Shown here: piece by piece, positions 2,269-32,353 of the stretch
Numbering within the stretch: position 1 is the first letter of the stretch
How the letters are laid out: every line of letters begins with the position of its first letter
Assembly (NCBI GenBank): GCA_022571865.1
Contig: JACZXA010000018.1
Coordinates: 1-33,624, forward strand
Direction: 5' to 3'
Length of the DNA: 33,624 nt
Origin: Pseudomonadota bacterium
GTDB lineage: Bacteria; Pseudomonadota; Gammaproteobacteria; Pseudomonadales; Azotimanducaceae
Notes under the pieces: generated by a model
Databases searched by the model: none
Seen by the model: only the letters and a program-made list of their open reading frames with translations
What the model was told of the DNA's origin: nothing
Program-made: the position numbers and the translations under genes

Positions 2269-3192
2269 TTATTCAGGCCAGATGCAATCCGCACAACCAT
2301 TGCGGGCCAGATTCAGTTCCGCTGCCCGGACATCGTCTTCGAGATGATATTGCGGGTCTGTCGTGCGCTCGACGCGCGCGTCGGCATGTTCTGTCTTTTC
2401 GGAATTTGGCCGCATGACCTGGTCTTTCCAATCCTCGGTTGCCGCCCAGCGGTACGGTAGCGACCGAATGGTTCCGGGAACCTGAATCGTATCCAATGCC
2501 GACAGTGTATCGATCATGACTTTACGCTGTAGTGCTTTATCCCCTGGCTTTCCAGCGGTATGGCCGAGCGGGAAGTCCAGATACACGGCTCGAGGCACGT
2601 TGACCGAGCGGGTAATCGAATAGGCGCTAGACATGCTGATAGTCGGTATGCCGCGCTGTTCGATTTCCCGGGCGATCAGTCCGACGGACTGATGGCAGAC
2701 GGGTCAGACGGGTACCAGGATGACGACATCCACCCCGTCTTTGACGAGTCGGTCGGCGATGGCGGGGGCGAGAATTTCCTTTACCTTGCGGGATGAATAA
2801 ATACCACCCATAAAGGTATAGGCATGTGGCCCCAGTTCACCGATACGACTCAACTGGGCCATATCTCTGAGGGTTTCCAAGGGAAAAACGACGTTCGGAT
2901 CGACCCTTGCCGCGGTGAGATCGTAGGCAAAGTGGGTAACACGCAACTCGCTCAGCTTTACCGTAGTCGGGATGAGGCGAAAACTGCAATCGTCCTTGAA
3001 GTGGAAGGCCACCTGGCCGTGGCGATAAATGCCCCCTGACGCCACCAGTCCAACCCGGGCATCCTGCAACGCCTTGCCGAGTGGTACAAACGGCGGGTCC
3101 CCGGGGTTGTTCACCCATTGGTAGGGCGGATACCCCAAGTTCGCATATTGCTCTAGGGTTCGCTGGATGTAATCGACCGGTTCGTTATGCAT
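2269..3192 (-). CDS. GrdB/PrdB-like reductase family selenoprotein (in-frame UGA = Sec)
   Basis: A 307-residue protein of the glycine/sarcosine/betaine/D-proline reductase selenoprotein-B-like family, read through an in-frame TGA at 2706-2704. Upstream of the TGA the frame gives 162 residues ending VDVVILVPV. After it the same frame continues with PVCHQSVGLIAREIE and on to a TAA at 2271-2269. The recoded residue is Sec163 in a U-P-V-C context, a UxxC redox motif matching the family active site. An 8-bp stem with a short loop begins 10 nt after the UGA (see 2675-2693). A naive gene call would split this into two hypothetical proteins. Classical GrdB and PrdB belong to anaerobic Stickland reductases; family members in aerobic proteobacteria have no established substrate, so none is assigned. 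The Sec machinery (selA, selB, selC, selD) is not in this window. A genuine truncating mutation is the alternative, but conservation on both sides of the UGA argues against it. Confidence 0.85.
2675..2693 (-). promoter_or_regulatory. Candidate bacterial SECIS stem-loop
   Basis: On the coding (minus) strand the sequence ATCAGTCC-GTC-GGACTGAT forms a perfect 8-bp stem with a 3-nt GUC loop. Ten nucleotides separate it from the UGA, putting the loop at +19. Bacterial SECIS elements lie within the coding sequence just downstream of the UGA and expose a G in the apical loop for SelB. The position and loop G fit that. The loop is shorter than the best-known E. coli fdhF example, and the outer C-G closing pairs may open in the real fold. 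Confidence 0.65.
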
Positions 3193-5244: not shown

Positions 5245-6360
5245 TCAAAGGCCCATGAATCGGCTGGGGTTCGCATACACGACTTGTTCCGCGACTGTTG
5301 GACCGGCTGAATCGAAAGTAACCTGTGCTTCTTCATACGCGCCGGGATAGGTCGAATCGAAGTGCGGATAATCAGAACCCCAGAGAATGCAATGGGTGAG
5401 ATCCATTTCCATCATCCATTTCAGACCGCTGACTTCATCGGCTTCCATTGAGACAAAGCACTGCTCGTGAAAGATCTCACTCGGCCGCCGTTTCAGCCAC
5501 GGGGTGTGATGACCCATCACCTCGAAGTGTTCGTCCAGGCGCTCCAACCAATAGGGAATCCAACCTAAACCACTTTCAAAAAACCCTACCCTCAAGGTCG
5601 GGAATCGGTCCAATACGCCACCGGCGATGAGGTCCATGACAAGCGCCATCTGTCCGAACGGATGGGCGATCATGTGGTCGTAGAAAACGTTGTCCCGGTA
5701 TCTGCCAGTCGAGAAACTGGGCATCCGGGAACCGAAGCTACCGTGAATGCCCACGGCCAGCTCGTCGCTGGCGGCGACCTCCCACAGCCCGTCGCAGCGA
5801 GCATCGTAAAGTGCAAGACCCTTGAAACGTTCAGGGCGGCTCAAGAATCCTCGCAAGCCGAGCTCTCGCATCCGCTTCGCTTCGCTGATGGCGAGGTCAA
5901 TATCCTGCAGTGGAATGATCCCCATGCCGAACAGCCGCTCGGGATCCGTTTTGCAGAAATCGCTCATCCAGTTGTTGTAAGCACGGCAGGTTTCTGCCGC
6001 CACCAGCGGATCTTCCACGTCACCCCAGAGCAAGTGAATGGAGGGGAAAAACAGTGCTTTGTCGATACCTTCGGCCGTCATGACCTTAAGACGTTCGTTC
6101 GGATCGTGACTCCCGGGTAGAATGTCGGCCCAGGTGAGGTTGCGTCCGGGTTCCATGCCGCCAGGGATACATGCATGCGCAGGGCCGGCGCCAGTATGAC
6201 CCAACCGTCCGTGGCCCTCGACGTAGACCGCGCTCTGGTTATTTTCGGTACGTACCTGCAGCACTTGCTCGCGGAACTTTGCTTGGGTGTATTCCGTCCA
6301 GACGAGTTCGGGCTCGCAGATATGCCCGTCGCCATCGATCACTATTGCTGGTCGTGTCAT
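5245..6360 (-). CDS. Amidohydrolase family metal-dependent hydrolase/decarboxylase
   Basis: About 371 residues of the amidohydrolase_2 superfamily (TIM-barrel, ACMSD/LigW-like). The N-terminus has the metal-binding D-x-D-x-H pattern in VIDGDGHICEP. An internal histidine lies in GIHGSFG, and the C-terminal acid is in WGSDYPHFDS. Family members hydrolyse or decarboxylate ring-cleavage products and similar acids. It is the first gene of a two-gene unit with the SDR. The ATG at 6360 gives the compact family N-terminus and has a GGGGTAAGG stretch upstream; an alternative ATG at 6390 would add ten unlikely residues. It is divergent from the crotonase gene at 6554, with about 190 bases between for both promoters. 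Confidence 0.88.
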   Translation of the reverse strand: MTRPAIVIDGDGHICEPELVWTEYTQAKFREQVLQVRTENNQSAVYVEGHGRLGHTGAGPAHACIPGGMEPGRNLTWADILPGSHDPNERLKVMTAEGIDKALFFPSIHLLWGDVEDPLVAAETCRAYNNWMSDFCKTDPERLFGMGIIPLQDIDLAISEAKRMRELGLRGFLSRPERFKGLALYDARCDGLWEVAASDELAVGIHGSFGSRMPSFSTGRYRDNVFYDHMIAHPFGQMALVMDLIAGGVLDRFPTLRVGFFESGLGWIPYWLERLDEHFEVMGHHTPWLKRRPSEIFHEQCFVSMEADEVSGLKWMMEMDLTHCILWGSDYPHFDSTYPGAYEEAQVTFDSAGPTVAEQVVYANPSRFMGL

Positions 6361-6553
6361 TACCTTACCCCGTTCCGTAGGCAGAACCATAAGCTAACAC
6401 ATGAACCACAGCTGAGTGGGTCATCGTGTATTGCGCAGAAGTAGATATGCGTCCTACCGCACTGGATAGCGCATGAAGCATTCGCTCGGTAACATTCGCA
6501 CCTGTACAAACCGTGCGTTGAATCAACCCAGAAGCGAAGGATGGGAGAAGGAC

Positions 6554-7339
6554 ATGAGCGAATCGGTATTACGCTACGAAGTAAAAGACCATGTGGGGGT
6601 GATCACACTCACGCGTCCCGAGGTGATGAACTCGCTGAACTATCAGTCGTATCTGGAGTTTGAAGACACCGTTCGCGGTTGCACGGCTCGGGTATTGATC
6701 ATCACGGGTGAAGGTCGGGCCTTCTGTGCCGGGGACGATGTGAAGCAGATTCTCGGCAGCTCTGAACCCCCACCGGAGGAGTTTGTCGAGCGATCCAAAA
6801 AGAGTGCAGGATTGACCCCGCTCGCGGATGCGCTGTTGCATACCGACATTCCGATAATCGCTGCGGTGAACGGCCCTGCAGTGGGATGGGGTATGGAGCT
6901 TGCGCTTATGGCCGACATCCGTGTTGCTTCTGAAAATGCCAAATTCGGGGAGCTCTTCGTCATTCGCGGGTTGTGTTGTGATGCGCCGGGGTTTGGTCGT
7001 CTTGCCCAGCTTGTGGGTCGAGAAAAAGCAGCCGAGTTGCTCTTCACTGGCGAGATCATTGATTCGCAAACCGCTCTGGCGATAGGTCTGGTGTCTCGTC
7101 GAGTACCTCACGACGAACTCATGCCGACAGCGTTTGCCCTGGCAGCCAGGATCGCGGGCAATCCGCCTTTGGCCGTACAAGCATTGAAAGCGGGGTTACG
7201 CCGAACGCTGGATCCCGACTGGCAGGACACAGGCCGCTGGGCCATCGAGAAGATCCGAGAACTTCGCCAAACGGAAGATTCTAAGGAAGGCGTACGCGCA
7301 TTCCTGGAGAAACGCGCGCCGGTTTATGTCGGCAGGTAG
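6554..7339 (+). CDS. Enoyl-CoA hydratase/isomerase (crotonase) family protein
   Basis: A 261-residue crotonase-fold protein. The CoA/oxyanion segment AFCAGDDVKQI and the PAVGWGMELALMADIR block are typical. The first hydratase glutamate (in MELALM) is present. The second, normally in FGxPE, is replaced: the aligned stretch reads FGELFVIRGLCCDAPG, with Phe at that position. That pattern, with an Asp in the GLxxD segment, is closer to isomerase-type crotonases, so a plain hydratase call is not safe. The ATG at 6554 follows GAGAAGGAC; an upstream ATG at 6473 would add 27 residues of non-family sequence. It faces away from the SDR/amidohydrolase pair. Confidence 0.88.
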   Translation: MSESVLRYEVKDHVGVITLTRPEVMNSLNYQSYLEFEDTVRGCTARVLIITGEGRAFCAGDDVKQILGSSEPPPEEFVERSKKSAGLTPLADALLHTDIPIIAAVNGPAVGWGMELALMADIRVASENAKFGELFVIRGLCCDAPGFGRLAQLVGREKAAELLFTGEIIDSQTALAIGLVSRRVPHDELMPTAFALAARIAGNPPLAVQALKAGLRRTLDPDWQDTGRWAIEKIRELRQTEDSKEGVRAFLEKRAPVYVGR

Positions 7340-7341
7340 AG

Positions 7342-8652
7342 TTATGACGGTTCGGGTTTCGGGTAGGAGTCGGATAACCGTTCCGGGGGACGCGAACCGT
7401 AAGTCATCCATCGCCAGACGAATTCCAGCGGCCCAAAACGATAACGGCTGAGCCACAGGGGACTCGTGACAAGCTGGAAAGCCCAGATGGCGAGCACGAT
7501 GAGATAGAGCTGTGCCCGCTCGATCTGACCGAATAGCGCAAGCCCCGCTCCAGTGAATAGGAACAGGCAAATCAAGCTGTGGGAGAGATAATTCGTCAGC
7601 GCCATCTTGCCTACGGCTGCCAGTGCGTTTTGCAAACGGCGAAAACGGTCTGATCGACACCAGAGCATGACGAGGCCGATGTATCCACATGCAGTCCCCC
7701 CTCGGCCAAGCTGGTAGGTCGGAGTGAAGTAGGGGCTCGTCCAGTCCAGGGTGAAATTGCCGATAATGGCGAAATAGACTTCCATCACGTTGATCGGCAA
7801 GCCGATAGCGAAACCCAAGGCGGCAAACCAGCCGTAGAACCGAACGCTCCTCCTGCCGGTGAGGATGTGCCATTTGAAGAACGCCATTCCAAGGAACATC
7901 ATCGCCAACACGTCCCATAACGCGCCGGTGAATACGTCCACAGTGGCGAGCTGCCAGGCAGCCGGGGCAAAAGTAACAACGTTGCCAAGATAATCGCCCT
8001 GACGAGCTTCGATTTCCTGGGCGATGTCTGCCTCGGTTGGTAGATGAGCGGCTTGGATGACGAGATAGCGGGCGGCTGCTTGTCGGTCACGGGGCGAGGG
8101 TTCTGTCTCCCCGGCTTCGGCCAACTCCACTCGAGCCGCGGCTGCGCGTTGTTCCGATAAGGCGAAGGTGTTGGCGGTTTGTCCGAGTACCATCACAACG
8201 ACCAGGGTCATGCCGATGATCGCGAGCGCACGTGCGGATCGATTGCGGAAGAAATATAGAACCAGCCCGGCGAGGCCGTAGACGTAAAGAACGTCGCCCA
8301 GCCACAACAGTGCAAACATATCGACCAGGCCAAAGGCGATCAGCACAAAGGTGCGACGAAAGTAGAGGCGTCGCACGATTTCATCTTCGTCTGGTGCCGT
8401 TGATTTGCTGGTAAAAAGCAGAATACCTGCCCCGAATAGCATAGAGAAAATGGCCCGCATCGCACCTTCGACAAACACCCAATTCAGTTCATAGCTCAAA
8501 AGGTTGACGCCCTCGGTCGCGCCATCGACTACGGGGTTGAAATAGGCGGCATAGGGTTGCCCGAACATGATGATGTTGAGCAGCACAATGCCGAGGAGCG
8601 CTATGCCTCGCAGCACATCGATAACCCCGATGCGCTCGGTTCTCGGGGCCAA
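7342..8652 (-). CDS. DUF418 family integral membrane protein
   Basis: A multi-pass membrane protein of about 436 residues. It starts with the DUF418-typical RIGVIDVLRGIALLGIVLLN and has a C-terminal DUF418 region including YLSHSLIC and a terminal PLEFVWRWMTYG block. Around eight to ten hydrophobic segments are visible. Function is unknown; family members are sometimes placed near transport or acyl-transfer systems. The start is uncertain: no ATG precedes the conserved N-terminus. The TTG at 8652 gives the family-like beginning and lies 11 bases after the stop of the upstream DUF427 gene. A longer frame reaching 8766 would overlap that gene. Convergent with the crotonase gene, with almost no gap. 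Confidence 0.8.
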   Translation of the reverse strand: MAPRTERIGVIDVLRGIALLGIVLLNIIMFGQPYAAYFNPVVDGATEGVNLLSYELNWVFVEGAMRAIFSMLFGAGILLFTSKSTAPDEDEIVRRLYFRRTFVLIAFGLVDMFALLWLGDVLYVYGLAGLVLYFFRNRSARALAIIGMTLVVVMVLGQTANTFALSEQRAAAARVELAEAGETEPSPRDRQAAARYLVIQAAHLPTEADIAQEIEARQGDYLGNVVTFAPAAWQLATVDVFTGALWDVLAMMFLGMAFFKWHILTGRRSVRFYGWFAALGFAIGLPINVMEVYFAIIGNFTLDWTSPYFTPTYQLGRGGTACGYIGLVMLWCRSDRFRRLQNALAAVGKMALTNYLSHSLICLFLFTGAGLALFGQIERAQLYLIVLAIWAFQLVTSPLWLSRYRFGPLEFVWRWMTYGSRPPERLSDSYPKPEPS

Positions 8653-8663
8653 CCGGGCTGGGG

Positions 8664-9077
8664 CTACTGTGTCCAGCCGGGACCCACTTTTGCTTGGAGT
8701 TCGCCGTCGATTTCGAGGGTTACCCGGTCGGTATAGAAGGAAACGTAGCCTTGCAGGGCCAGGCACTCATCATAGGGTGTGAGATAGCTCCACATGACGT
8801 CATCCAGCGTGCCGTCTTCGGTAGTGACGTTCCAGTAGCTGGCGTCACCCTTGAACGGGCAGTGAGTGGAGGTATCTGTTGCACTCAGCAGGTTTTCAAT
8901 CACGTCTTCCCGGGGCAGATACCATACCGGACGGTGTCTGGTTTCTGTCACAGCCACGGCTTTTTGGCTATCGGCAAGGACGGTGTCACCCACTAATACC
9001 CGAATGTGTGCGGGGCTGGGCTCGATAAGTACTTCGTAGTTCGGGTGTTGCTGAAAACCCGGTGCGGAATTATTCAT
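8664..9077 (-). CDS. DUF427 domain protein
   Basis: A 137-residue cytosolic protein with the DUF427 signature: RPVWYLPREDV followed by HCPFKGDASYW and a late YVSFY. The family is small and widespread in bacteria with no settled biochemical role. The ATG at 9077 is preferred; an in-frame TTG at 9107 is the alternative, and GAGG lies upstream of the ATG. It sits immediately upstream of the DUF418 membrane protein and is probably co-transcribed with it. Confidence 0.85.
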   Translation of the reverse strand: MNNSAPGFQQHPNYEVLIEPSPAHIRVLVGDTVLADSQKAVAVTETRHRPVWYLPREDVIENLLSATDTSTHCPFKGDASYWNVTTEDGTLDDVMWSYLTPYDECLALQGYVSFYTDRVTLEIDGELQAKVGPGWTQ

Positions 9078-9236
9078 GTGGTCGGCCTCGTTGAAGTCTT
9101 GCGTCAAACCTCCCGGGGACGGTAGGTGAGTGTGTGGGTGCTGTCAAAGTCTGCTGCTGGTGCAACGGTGCTTTCCAGAGGTAGTTAGGGTATTTTCTAA
9201 ACCGAAATTGTGAATCTAGTCGAATAAGGAGCAGAC

Positions 9237-9755
9237 ATGGTTGCTGAAGCCAAGCGGGTCGGGCAGCAGAGGTATCGAGAGTCGTATGGACGGTATCTGG
9301 AGGACTTCTCGGTCGGGGATGTATATGAGCACCGCCCGGGAAGGACGATCACCGAGAGCGATAACACCTGGTTCACCCTGCTGACCATGAATCAGCATCC
9401 ATTACATTTTGATAAAGAGTACGGCGCGAAGAGCGAGTTCGGACAGGTGCTCGTGAATTCCTGCTTAACCCTGTCGTTGGTAACCGGTATGTCCGTCTCG
9501 GATGTCAGCCAGAAAACGATTGCCAATCTCGGCTGGAACAACGTAAAGCTCACGAGACCTGTGTTCATCGGCGATACGCTTTACGCAGAATCCGAGGTGT
9601 TGTCGATTCGGGAGTCTAAATCGCGACCGACTCAAGGTATCGTCAGCATCCGCTCGATTGGCAAGAAGCAAGATGGCACAGAGGTAATCAGTTTCGAACG
9701 TGCGATGCTCATTCCGAAGCGCGGCCACGCAGTCGATGACGCGATCGACTACTAG
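9237..9755 (+). CDS. MaoC-like (R)-hydratase family protein
   Basis: A 172-residue hot-dog-fold MaoC dehydratase. The motif FSVGDVYEHRPGRTITESDNT is followed by the catalytic-region NQHPLHFD, and the C-terminal half has the expected GDTLYAESEV. Such proteins hydrate enoyl-CoA thioesters (mesaconyl-CoA hydratase-like or beta-oxidation variants). The ATG at 9237 is preceded by AAGGAG. The acyl-CoA dehydrogenase starts 12 bases after its stop, so the two form an operon and probably act in succession on the same acyl-CoA pathway. Confidence 0.9.
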   Translation: MVAEAKRVGQQRYRESYGRYLEDFSVGDVYEHRPGRTITESDNTWFTLLTMNQHPLHFDKEYGAKSEFGQVLVNSCLTLSLVTGMSVSDVSQKTIANLGWNNVKLTRPVFIGDTLYAESEVLSIRESKSRPTQGIVSIRSIGKKQDGTEVISFERAMLIPKRGHAVDDAIDY

Positions 9756-14852: not shown

Positions 14853-14915
14853 AAAAGAGGTCAGGTCGAGGTCAGGTTAAGTTTTCGAAGAAGCTAATCT
14901 GACCCCTCTTTTTTT
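14853..14915. terminator. Rho-independent terminator between convergent genes
   Basis: AAAAGAGG and TCAG at 14853-14864 pair with CTGA and CCTCTTTT at 14899-14912, with a two-base bulge, followed by a run of T on the plus strand. The far end overlaps the btuB stop codon. The minus strand has four T after the stem, so it may work both ways. GAGGTCAGGT is repeated in tandem within it (14857-14866 and 14868-14877), allowing alternative pairings. Confidence 0.7.
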
Positions 14916-16752
14916 ACCTGCGCCAGCGTACGCCTACCGAGGCAGACAACCCCGGCGTGCCGTAGCCGAGAACCTGCTGATATTCCTCATCGAACAGGTT
15001 CTCGATTCGGCCATACAGTTCCAGGTTTTCGGTCGCGGTGTAAGTGGCAGACAGATCGATGCGCCACCAGTCGCCGACCACGCCCGAAGGGTCTTGTTCC
15101 TCATCGTTGTAACGTGCGGTCAATGCGGCTCCGAGTCGATCGTTTGGAGACCAGCCGATCACCAGGTCGCCCGTATGTTTCGGCACGCGGATCAGCGGAT
15201 TCCCGGCGCCGTCTTCGGCATCGATGTAGGCGTAGTCCAGTGAAAGATGCAACGTGTCACCGAGCAGATAATGCCCCGTCAACTCTACTCCGCGCGATTC
15301 GGCTACGGCGATGTTGTTGTAACCACCGGCCAGGAACGAAAAGTTGATCAAGTTCTCTGTCCTCTGGTCGAAGTAGGTGAGCCCGATGCCGCCGCGATTG
15401 TTTGCGAAGCGATACTCGACACCGATGTCGAAAGCATCACTTTCTTCCGGGGCCAGATCCGCGTTGGGTGCCATTGCGCCACAACAGAAAAATGTAGTCT
15501 GAAAAAGTGTGGGGGCTTTGAAGCCTTCTCCCCAACTGGCACGCAACGTCACCGAATCGATTGGGGTAAAAGCCACCCCCACACGAGCTGTCGTTATCGA
15601 ACCGAATTGGTCGTGTTCATCCATCCGTCCACCCACGGACAGCGTGAGACCTTTCAGTGGCCGTAGCTCGACGAGCACGAAGACACCGTCGATTGTCGTT
15701 TTGTCACCACCCGCTTTCGACTTGTCCCGCTCGGTGCCAAACGCGACGCGCACTCGCTCATTCACGTCTAGTGTACCCTGGTAGCGGAAGATCCAGCGTT
15801 CGCCTTCGGCGGAGAACGAAGGGACACCGTTAGTGAAATTATTTCGTTCAATCTCGGCGTAACCCAACTGAATGTCATTGACCAGACGGTCGTCGAAAAG
15901 TGTTGCGGTATACCGCAGGTTTCCCGATAGCGTCTTGGATTCCGTGCGCTCGTCACCATCTTGCAATCCAACCGGAAACACGAAGCTGTCGGAATCTTTG
16001 TCAGAATTCACGTATCTGAGATCCGCCTCGATTCGCGAACCGCCTCGGAGGTTTAATCCTCCTCGGGCGACGAGCGTCAGTGACTCGAACGCATCTTCTT
16101 CGGAGTTTCCATCGTTTTCATCCGCGGATGAAATACCCTCTGATTCCACCAAAGTGACACCTACACGCATATCGCCTGTGTCGTTAGCCAGGCCAATTGC
16201 CCCGCCTCCTCGAAGGGTCTTGAACGATCCTGCTTCGGCAAAGGCTTGCAGGTTCAAACCCTGTTGTGGCCGCTTGGTGATGATGTTCACAACGCCGCCG
16301 ATTGCATCGGTTCCCCACAACGTGGATTGCGGCCCTTTTAGAATCTCTATGCGCTCGATGTCGGCGACGTCGAGGGATGCAAAGTCGTAACCGCCACCGG
16401 GCGCTGCCGGGTCGTTCACGACCATACCGTCGATGAGCACCAAGGTTTGATCGCTGGAGGCACCCCGGACCCGAACGGTTGCCTGGCCGCCAATCGCGCC
16501 GTTCTGGTTGACGGTTGCACCGGCAATGCCCGCGATCGCGTCAAGGGCAAAACTGTATCCGTGGGCTTTGATATCTTCGGCCGTAATCACGGCAACGCTG
16601 GTGCCCGTTTCCAGCTCGGTGGTATTCATGCGCAGCGCGGAAACGAAAATTTCTTCCTCGACGCTATCTTCGGCTGTCACGCTGCAGGGAATGACGTAGA
16701 GACAAAAAGCAGCGCAAAATAGCGCCGCCTGTAGGGTGGTTTGAACTAACAT
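14914..16752 (-). CDS. btuB: TonB-dependent vitamin B12 receptor, BtuB-like
   Basis: A 612-residue outer-membrane receptor, essentially the length of E. coli BtuB (614). It has a signal peptide ending near TAEDS, a TonB-box-like EEIFVSA, and the plug domain with VRVRGASSDQTLVLIDG and IERIEILKGPQSTLWG. A 22-strand barrel-like C-terminal half follows, ending in GVRWRR instead of the common terminal phenylalanine. The substrate assignment rests on the cobalamin riboswitch ending about 114 bases upstream, which is decisive context. The ribosome-binding site GGAGGAG is strong. No BtuCDF transporter genes are in the window. Confidence 0.9.
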   Translation of the reverse strand: MLVQTTLQAALFCAAFCLYVIPCSVTAEDSVEEEIFVSALRMNTTELETGTSVAVITAEDIKAHGYSFALDAIAGIAGATVNQNGAIGGQATVRVRGASSDQTLVLIDGMVVNDPAAPGGGYDFASLDVADIERIEILKGPQSTLWGTDAIGGVVNIITKRPQQGLNLQAFAEAGSFKTLRGGGAIGLANDTGDMRVGVTLVESEGISSADENDGNSEEDAFESLTLVARGGLNLRGGSRIEADLRYVNSDKDSDSFVFPVGLQDGDERTESKTLSGNLRYTATLFDDRLVNDIQLGYAEIERNNFTNGVPSFSAEGERWIFRYQGTLDVNERVRVAFGTERDKSKAGGDKTTIDGVFVLVELRPLKGLTLSVGGRMDEHDQFGSITTARVGVAFTPIDSVTLRASWGEGFKAPTLFQTTFFCCGAMAPNADLAPEESDAFDIGVEYRFANNRGGIGLTYFDQRTENLINFSFLAGGYNNIAVAESRGVELTGHYLLGDTLHLSLDYAYIDAEDGAGNPLIRVPKHTGDLVIGWSPNDRLGAALTARYNDEEQDPSGVVGDWWRIDLSATYTATENLELYGRIENLFDEEYQQVLGYGTPGLSASVGVRWRR

Positions 16753-16865
16753 CGACTCTCCTCCGTAAGTACTTCACATGGTTGACCCTGCCTCAAAGTT
16801 CGGCAGTTTGTGTCGCACAACGGAAAGACCGCACCTGCGATTTACCCGATCGTGGTATCGCGACT

Positions 16866-17033
16866 TGGCGGCAGGTCTCCTGACTTACGGGTCGTAGCGT
16901 GTCACCGCCTTCCCAGCTGTTTTGGGACCAGCCAGTGGCGAGTTGGTGAGTACTTATCCGTCTACAGTTGCGGGTACAGCCCCGGCTTCTGACCGGGTTC
17001 CCTTTTGAGCCCATGAGGGCACCACCGTGGCTT
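16866..17033 (-). promoter_or_regulatory. Cobalamin (B12) riboswitch controlling btuB
   Basis: Read on the minus strand, the conserved blocks appear in order. GGTGCC comes first, then AAGCCGGGGCTG and CCCGCAACTGTA (the B12 box region), GCCACTGG, GGGAAGG, and finally CGACCCGTAAGTCAGGAGAC with CCTGCC. This is the textbook cobalamin aptamer. The expression platform is the roughly 110 bases to btuB; it contains a small CTGCC/GGCAG hairpin but no clear intrinsic terminator, so translational control is more likely. It represses btuB when B12 is plentiful. Confidence 0.97.
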
Positions 17034-17073
17034 TTATATCATGGCTTGGCCGAAAAAGGGGGATGCTTTTGTG

Positions 17074-32125: not shown

Positions 32126-32236
32126 GGTGACCCAGGTCGGTCCCCTCGCAATGACAAGTTGTGAACTCCGCCAGGCCCGGAAGGGAGCAACGGTAGCAGC
32201 GGCCTCGTGTGCAAGGTGTGGCTGGTTTGGGTTGCC
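32126..32236 (+). ncRNA. ffs: 4.5S signal recognition particle RNA
   Basis: The conserved SRP domain IV is plain: CCAGGCCCGGAAGGGAGCAA followed by GGTAGCAG, matching the GGAAG tetraloop region and the asymmetric internal loop that bind Ffh. The ends pair: GGTGACCCA at the 5' side with TGGGTTGCC at the 3' side, allowing G-U pairs. That gives a rod of about 111 nt, the usual size in gammaproteobacteria. Exact ends are estimated from this pairing. It lies 26 bases before tRNA-Ser. Confidence 0.93.
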
Positions 32237-32262: not shown

Positions 32263-32353
32263 GGAGAGGTGTCCGAGCGGTTGAAGGAGCACGCCTGGAA
32301 AGTGTGTATGGGTTTATAGCCCATCGAGGGTTCGAATCCCTCCCTCTCCGCCA
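32263..32353 (+). tRNA. tRNA-Ser(GGA)
   Basis: The acceptor stem GGAGAGG pairs with CCTCTCC, followed by G and an encoded CCA. The anticodon stem CACGC/GTGTG encloses the loop CTGGAAA with anticodon GGA at 32297-32299. A long variable arm (TATGGG...CCCAT) identifies a class II tRNA. The T-arm is GGGTTCGAATCCC. Length is 91 nt with CCA. It is a plausible integration site for the accessory genes beyond. Confidence 0.97.

Follow-up and report, generated by a model that had tools for sequence, protein, structure and literature searches.

A predicted selenoprotein of the GrdB/PrdB superfamily with a C-terminal CxxC tail in an oxygen-respiring gammaproteobacterium

When translation table 11 is applied to one locus of the window (the whole 33,624-nt stretch of gammaproteobacterial DNA analysed here), its frame splits into two ORFs, at 2704-3192 (162 aa) and 2269-2634 (121 aa), the form that automated gene calling would give it. 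Are these two hypothetical genes or a single selenoprotein gene with a recoded UGA and, if the latter, what might its product do in an aerobic bacterium? Read through, the locus is one 307-codon frame on the minus strand (2269-3192), in which the lone in-frame TGA is codon 163, at 2706-2704. Retranslation reproduced the coordinates, the VILVPV-U-PVCHQSVG motif and the 307-residue length given in a preliminary description of this DNA, and the chance of a further 143 codons without a stop after the TGA is approximately 0.005 at this GC content. The features of the locus are:

2269..3192 (-): predicted complete selenoprotein coding sequence, ATG at 3192, TAA at 2271-2269, 307 residues including Sec163 (translation with TGA=U; homologues aligned over residues 1-307)
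2704..2706 (-): in-frame UGA, codon 163, predicted selenocysteine at position 1 of UPVC (UxxC); TGA in 82/82 aligned loci, Cys in the distant homologues L107-L109
2695..2697 (-): Cys166, position 2 of UxxC, an invariant column of the alignment
2675..2693 (-): predicted bacterial SECIS hairpin, AUCAGUCC-GUC-GGACUGAU, with an 8-bp stem and apical loop GUN (from fold energy, pairing and loop conservation)
2443..3099 (-): PrdB/GrdB-like core, residues 32-250 (TIGR04483 match; PF07355 over residues 40-160)
2272..2442 (-): C-terminal extension past the PrdB model, which ends at about residue 250; residues 251-307, with W255, R273 and R276 invariant
2284..2295 (-): C-terminal CxxC (C300-A-D-C303), proposed resolving dithiol; CxxC in 79/82 loci

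Conservation around the codon is extensive. The aligned loci comprise 80 from other genomes, this gene and its paralogue, and the titles of the homologue records span Gammaproteobacteria, Deltaproteobacteria, Myxococcota, Acidobacteria, Chloroflexi, Binatota and Acidimicrobiales. Homologues that are 50-88% identical align across the TGA without a break, all carry it in the same column, and in every aligned homologue the frame runs on beyond it, none of the close ones stopping there. Codon changes relative to the closest relatives (L025 and L026) fall mostly in third positions on both sides of the TGA. The preliminary description had claimed that family sequence is continuous across this codon and forms a UxxC motif, and the alignment bears out both statements. 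In the distant homologues L107-L109 the same column holds TGC. One of several search patterns carried Cys in place of Sec, so any bias in the search ran against selenocysteine.

At the RNA level, a candidate SECIS element starts 10 nt 3' of the UGA. Counted from the UGA, 39 nt form a hairpin with a minimum free energy of -16.1 kcal/mol (z -3.06), its stem 8 bp long and its loop GUC, with 18 nt between UGA and loop. The bSECIS model specifies a loop of 3-9 nt, an upper stem of 4-16 bp, a G at one of the first two positions of the loop, a UGA-to-loop distance of 16-37 nt and an MFE of -7.5 or lower (PMC13188914), and the present hairpin lies within all of these limits, its 3-nt loop starting with G. 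The loop opens with GU in 81 of the 82 loci and pairing holds in 96.2% of the stem cells of 52 distinct sequences, falling to 46% or less when the partner strand is slid out of register. In pair 18/28, position 3 of a Gln codon (CAG/CAA) faces position 1 of a Leu codon (CTG/TTG), and in 10 of the 52 distinct sequences the pair switches between G-C and A-U with both sides changed; since both changes are synonymous, selection on the RNA is the best explanation. The paralogue L002 and L106 (38% identical) retain the stem with different bases. No such hairpin was seen in the Cys homologues L107 and L108, but in a third, L109, a stem still forms at this place, which blurs the contrast between Sec and Cys forms.

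The machinery for selenocysteine insertion, which the preliminary description had named as the first thing to look for, is encoded in full in the same genome. On contig C185, selA (8320-9657), selB (6470-8299) and selC (6318-6405) form one cluster, selD lies on contig C233, all four score above curated cut-offs, and ARAGORN also detects a tRNA-Sec with anticodon UCA. This capacity tracks the gene: selA is found in 43 of 50 genomes bearing a homologue vs 12 of 274 genomes of the class, and some of the seven without it may be incomplete, as these are mostly MAGs. Within the class sample, selA is present in all three genomes that have a TGA form (hypergeometric 6.5e-5) and in neither of the two that have Cys forms only. 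Two observations on selenium genes may be recorded here. SelD (L012, contig C233:3388-4290) occupies the C-terminal portion of an open frame of 766 residues and may be fused to another domain on its N-terminal side. In another genome (G265), a diverged GrdB-like frame with an in-frame TGA (L111, contig C42:5007-5573) lies ~1.3 kb upstream of selA on the same strand, a position that might tie the GrdB/PrdB superfamily to selenium metabolism itself.

The locus thus presents the features expected of a bacterial selenoprotein gene, namely a conserved UGA followed by conserved sequence, a SECIS and selA, selB, selC and selD. Because four independent lines (machinery, conservation, RNA hairpin and co-occurrence) agree, decoding of UGA 163 as selenocysteine is close to certain, and insertion of Sec163 through a SelB-bound hairpin is a prediction strongly supported by the machinery, the hairpin and conservation. 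Two other accounts of the codon must be considered. Were the UGA a true stop in a decaying or mis-sequenced locus, the split under table 11 would follow directly, yet a TGA in every aligned locus, a purifying pattern on both sides of it, the SECIS and the full Sec machinery leave that account with a negligible probability; the invariant TGA and the SECIS rule out a pseudogene or sequencing error. A read-through frame by itself leaves the inserted residue unnamed, and some other amino acid could in principle be supplied by a reassigned or leaky code. Here, however, the TGC codons of the distant homologues, together with tRNA-Sec, SelA, SelB and the SECIS, make this vanishingly improbable, and code reassignment is ruled out by the Cys homologues and the full machinery.

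What kind of selenoprotein is this? Profile searches place it in the GrdB/PrdB superfamily: it exceeds the cut-off of PF07355 (a partial match over residues 40-160, 43 vs 22 bits) and narrowly that of the broad subfamily model TIGR01918 (68.8 vs 65.45), and it has Sec in the UxxC column, where relatives have Sec or Cys. Its best family is TIGR04483 (PrdB), on which residues 32-250 cover model positions 17-235 of 238 and which all 52 aligned members scanned match, also with the best E-value, but the score of 160.7 bits is well short of the cut-off of 300, so that by the curated test it would not be classed as PrdB. On the GrdB, GrdF and GrdH equivalog models (TIGR01917, NF040794 and NF040795) it scores 69, 66 and 63 bits against cut-offs of 602, 800 and 775. 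The preliminary assignment to a GrdB/PrdB-like family therefore holds at the level of the superfamily, with the correction that the profile scores put the gene nearer to PrdB than to GrdB. No solved structure of a relative was found by sequence search, nor by a fold search with a confident model (pLDDT 92.3), for which the best E-value, 0.006, was judged not meaningful; a search for viral homologues found none. The genome holds a second PrdB-like gene with an in-frame TGA (L002:1432-2379, contig C289:1609-2415; 34-36% identical), which has a SECIS-like stem with a compensatory change (AGAC/GUCU), has no C-terminal CxxC and shares an insertion with the Cys homologues L107-L109. One homologue, 54% identical to the window's (L090), sits on a contig that a MAG record labels Klebsiella pneumoniae; to judge from this title, the MAG looks misassigned.

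Beyond the end of the PrdB model the protein continues for ~57 residues, and a CxxC motif within the last 30 residues recurs across several phyla, the only exceptions being the paralogue L002, L080 and L093, the last of which runs off its contig. A literature search for such a tail returned no paper matching all terms, and the conserved CxxC tail, absent from the PrdB model, is new in this analysis. C-terminal redox tails occur in class I ribonucleotide reductase and thioredoxin reductase, and analogy with these suggests that C300/C303 may serve the protein as its own dithiol relay and return the Sec site to its reduced form; the motif could instead bind metal.

The partner on which the known reductases depend appears to be missing. 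PF09338, the pyruvoyl partner family (GrdE-like/PrdA), has no match in this genome (93% complete), in agreement with the earlier remark that the usual Grd partners are not among the neighbouring genes; it occurs in 2 of the 50 genomes bearing a homologue, matches that show the search able to detect it, and not in the other 48. PrdA (TIGR04480) exceeded its cut-off in 0 of 51 genomes and had no match in this one, in a search run without a PrdA-bearing control genome. Clustering of the genes neighbouring the loci revealed no shared partner or operon: neighbours vary by lineage, with lineage-specific synteny in some Gammaproteobacteria (the nqr operon, or a bfr/mobA/DUF427/acyl-CoA dehydrogenase group) and a homocysteine methyltransferase gene near the locus in the closest relatives only. 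The protein thus probably works without the pyruvoyl subunit on which D-proline and glycine reductases rely, although an unrelated protein, encoded at another locus, could act as its activating partner. Three heme-copper oxidases in the genome confirm the aerobic host that had been surmised, one that respires oxygen, unlike the anaerobic Stickland fermenters.

These results bear directly on competing functional assignments. Marine surveys name such genes PrdB, and the gene might accordingly encode an ordinary D-proline reductase PrdB subunit acting with a PrdA-like partner; TIGR04483 is indeed its best family, and alignment over the core and Sec in UxxC are held in common. Tested on two marks of that enzyme, however, the gene falls under the TIGR04483 cut-off and has no PrdA in its genome, PF09338 is confined to two relatives, and the extra C-terminal segment with its CxxC and the aerobic host are further differences, so that this assignment is improbable. 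With protein B of glycine, sarcosine or betaine reductase the protein has UxxC and the C-terminal portion of the GrdB domain in common, but the first half of GrdB is missing here, the equivalog scores are far under their cut-offs and no GrdE-type PF09338 gene was found. A further alternative is a stand-alone enzyme in which Sec is the nucleophile and expels the leaving group of substrates that are already activated, such as halo-acids or quaternary amines. It has a precedent in FarB, a GrdB-type selenoprotein proposed for monofluoroacetate defluorination, with C-F cleavage where a Schiff base is impossible (PMC10838667), an attack on a substrate that is not an amino acid. The absence of a pyruvoyl subunit suits a substrate for which iminium activation is unnecessary. 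FarB, however, comes from an anaerobe; its partner is the GrdE-like FarE, and their operon also encodes a transporter and a radical SAM enzyme (PMC10838667), whereas at the present loci neither a shared operon of any kind nor a substrate was found. We consider this alternative unlikely.

The best overall explanation, with a probability of roughly 0.6, is a GrdB/PrdB superfamily selenoprotein that acts as a thiol-dependent reductase without a pyruvoyl subunit. SelB would dock on the hairpin that follows the UGA and direct insertion of Sec163, whose selenol would attack an electrophilic substrate; Cys166 would then resolve the product to leave a selenenyl-sulfide, which the C300/C303 tail could reopen by handing on electrons that thioredoxin or a comparable donor supplies. 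A single polypeptide would in this way hold both active site and relay, and a stand-alone reductase with such a tail relay, argued from analogy, is slightly better than an even bet. In the known enzymes the PrdA/GrdE carbonyl subunit polarises the amine. Without that subunit, and so without such polarisation, the substrate is probably an already electrophilic compound, or a disulfide or peroxide-type oxidant, and in these oxygen-respiring bacteria the product of the gene would be a soluble, thiol-dependent reductase acting on a small molecule, rather than a D-proline reductase of the Stickland type.

Genes of this type have been counted in the sea since 2005. According to the accessible portions of two surveys, 'PrdB' selenoproteins with UxxC rank among the most abundant marine selenoproteins, with 42 genes in the Sargasso Sea (PMC1088965) and 235 Sec and 110 Cys forms in the GOS data, where Pfam07355 stands in the 2008 table (PMC2398784); in a later survey proline reductase made up 6.4% of selenoprotein genes (PMC9402790). 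Several homologues derive from marine MAGs, and the present gene therefore most likely belongs to this group, with which it has UxxC and Pfam07355 in common. As far as their accessible portions extend, the two earlier surveys name the group by homology, and no mention of a missing PrdA or a CxxC tail was found in any of the three. The preliminary view that the protein has no settled function stands in so far as 'PrdB' is a name given by homology, but the broad family itself was already known from these surveys. The 'proline reductase' label on the marine group probably describes the wrong job. If most marine 'proline reductase' genes lack PrdA and have the redox tail, then a leading marine use of selenium is misannotated. 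More tentatively, and at somewhat less than even odds, the proteins may form a distinct class of single-polypeptide selenoenzymes in oxygen-respiring bacteria, joining a PrdB-derived Sec core to its own C-terminal dithiol relay, performing a novel reduction and accounting for much of marine 'proline reductase'. The CxxC tail and the invariant residues offer handles for mutagenesis and substrate screening.

Elsewhere in the window, a cobalamin riboswitch (16853-17039 (-), 119 bits) lies directly upstream of a TonB-dependent receptor-like gene (14914-16752 (-)), which is probably a vitamin B12 importer, and a bacterial small SRP RNA (32135-32230 (+)) is followed immediately by a tRNA gene (32263-32350 (+)).
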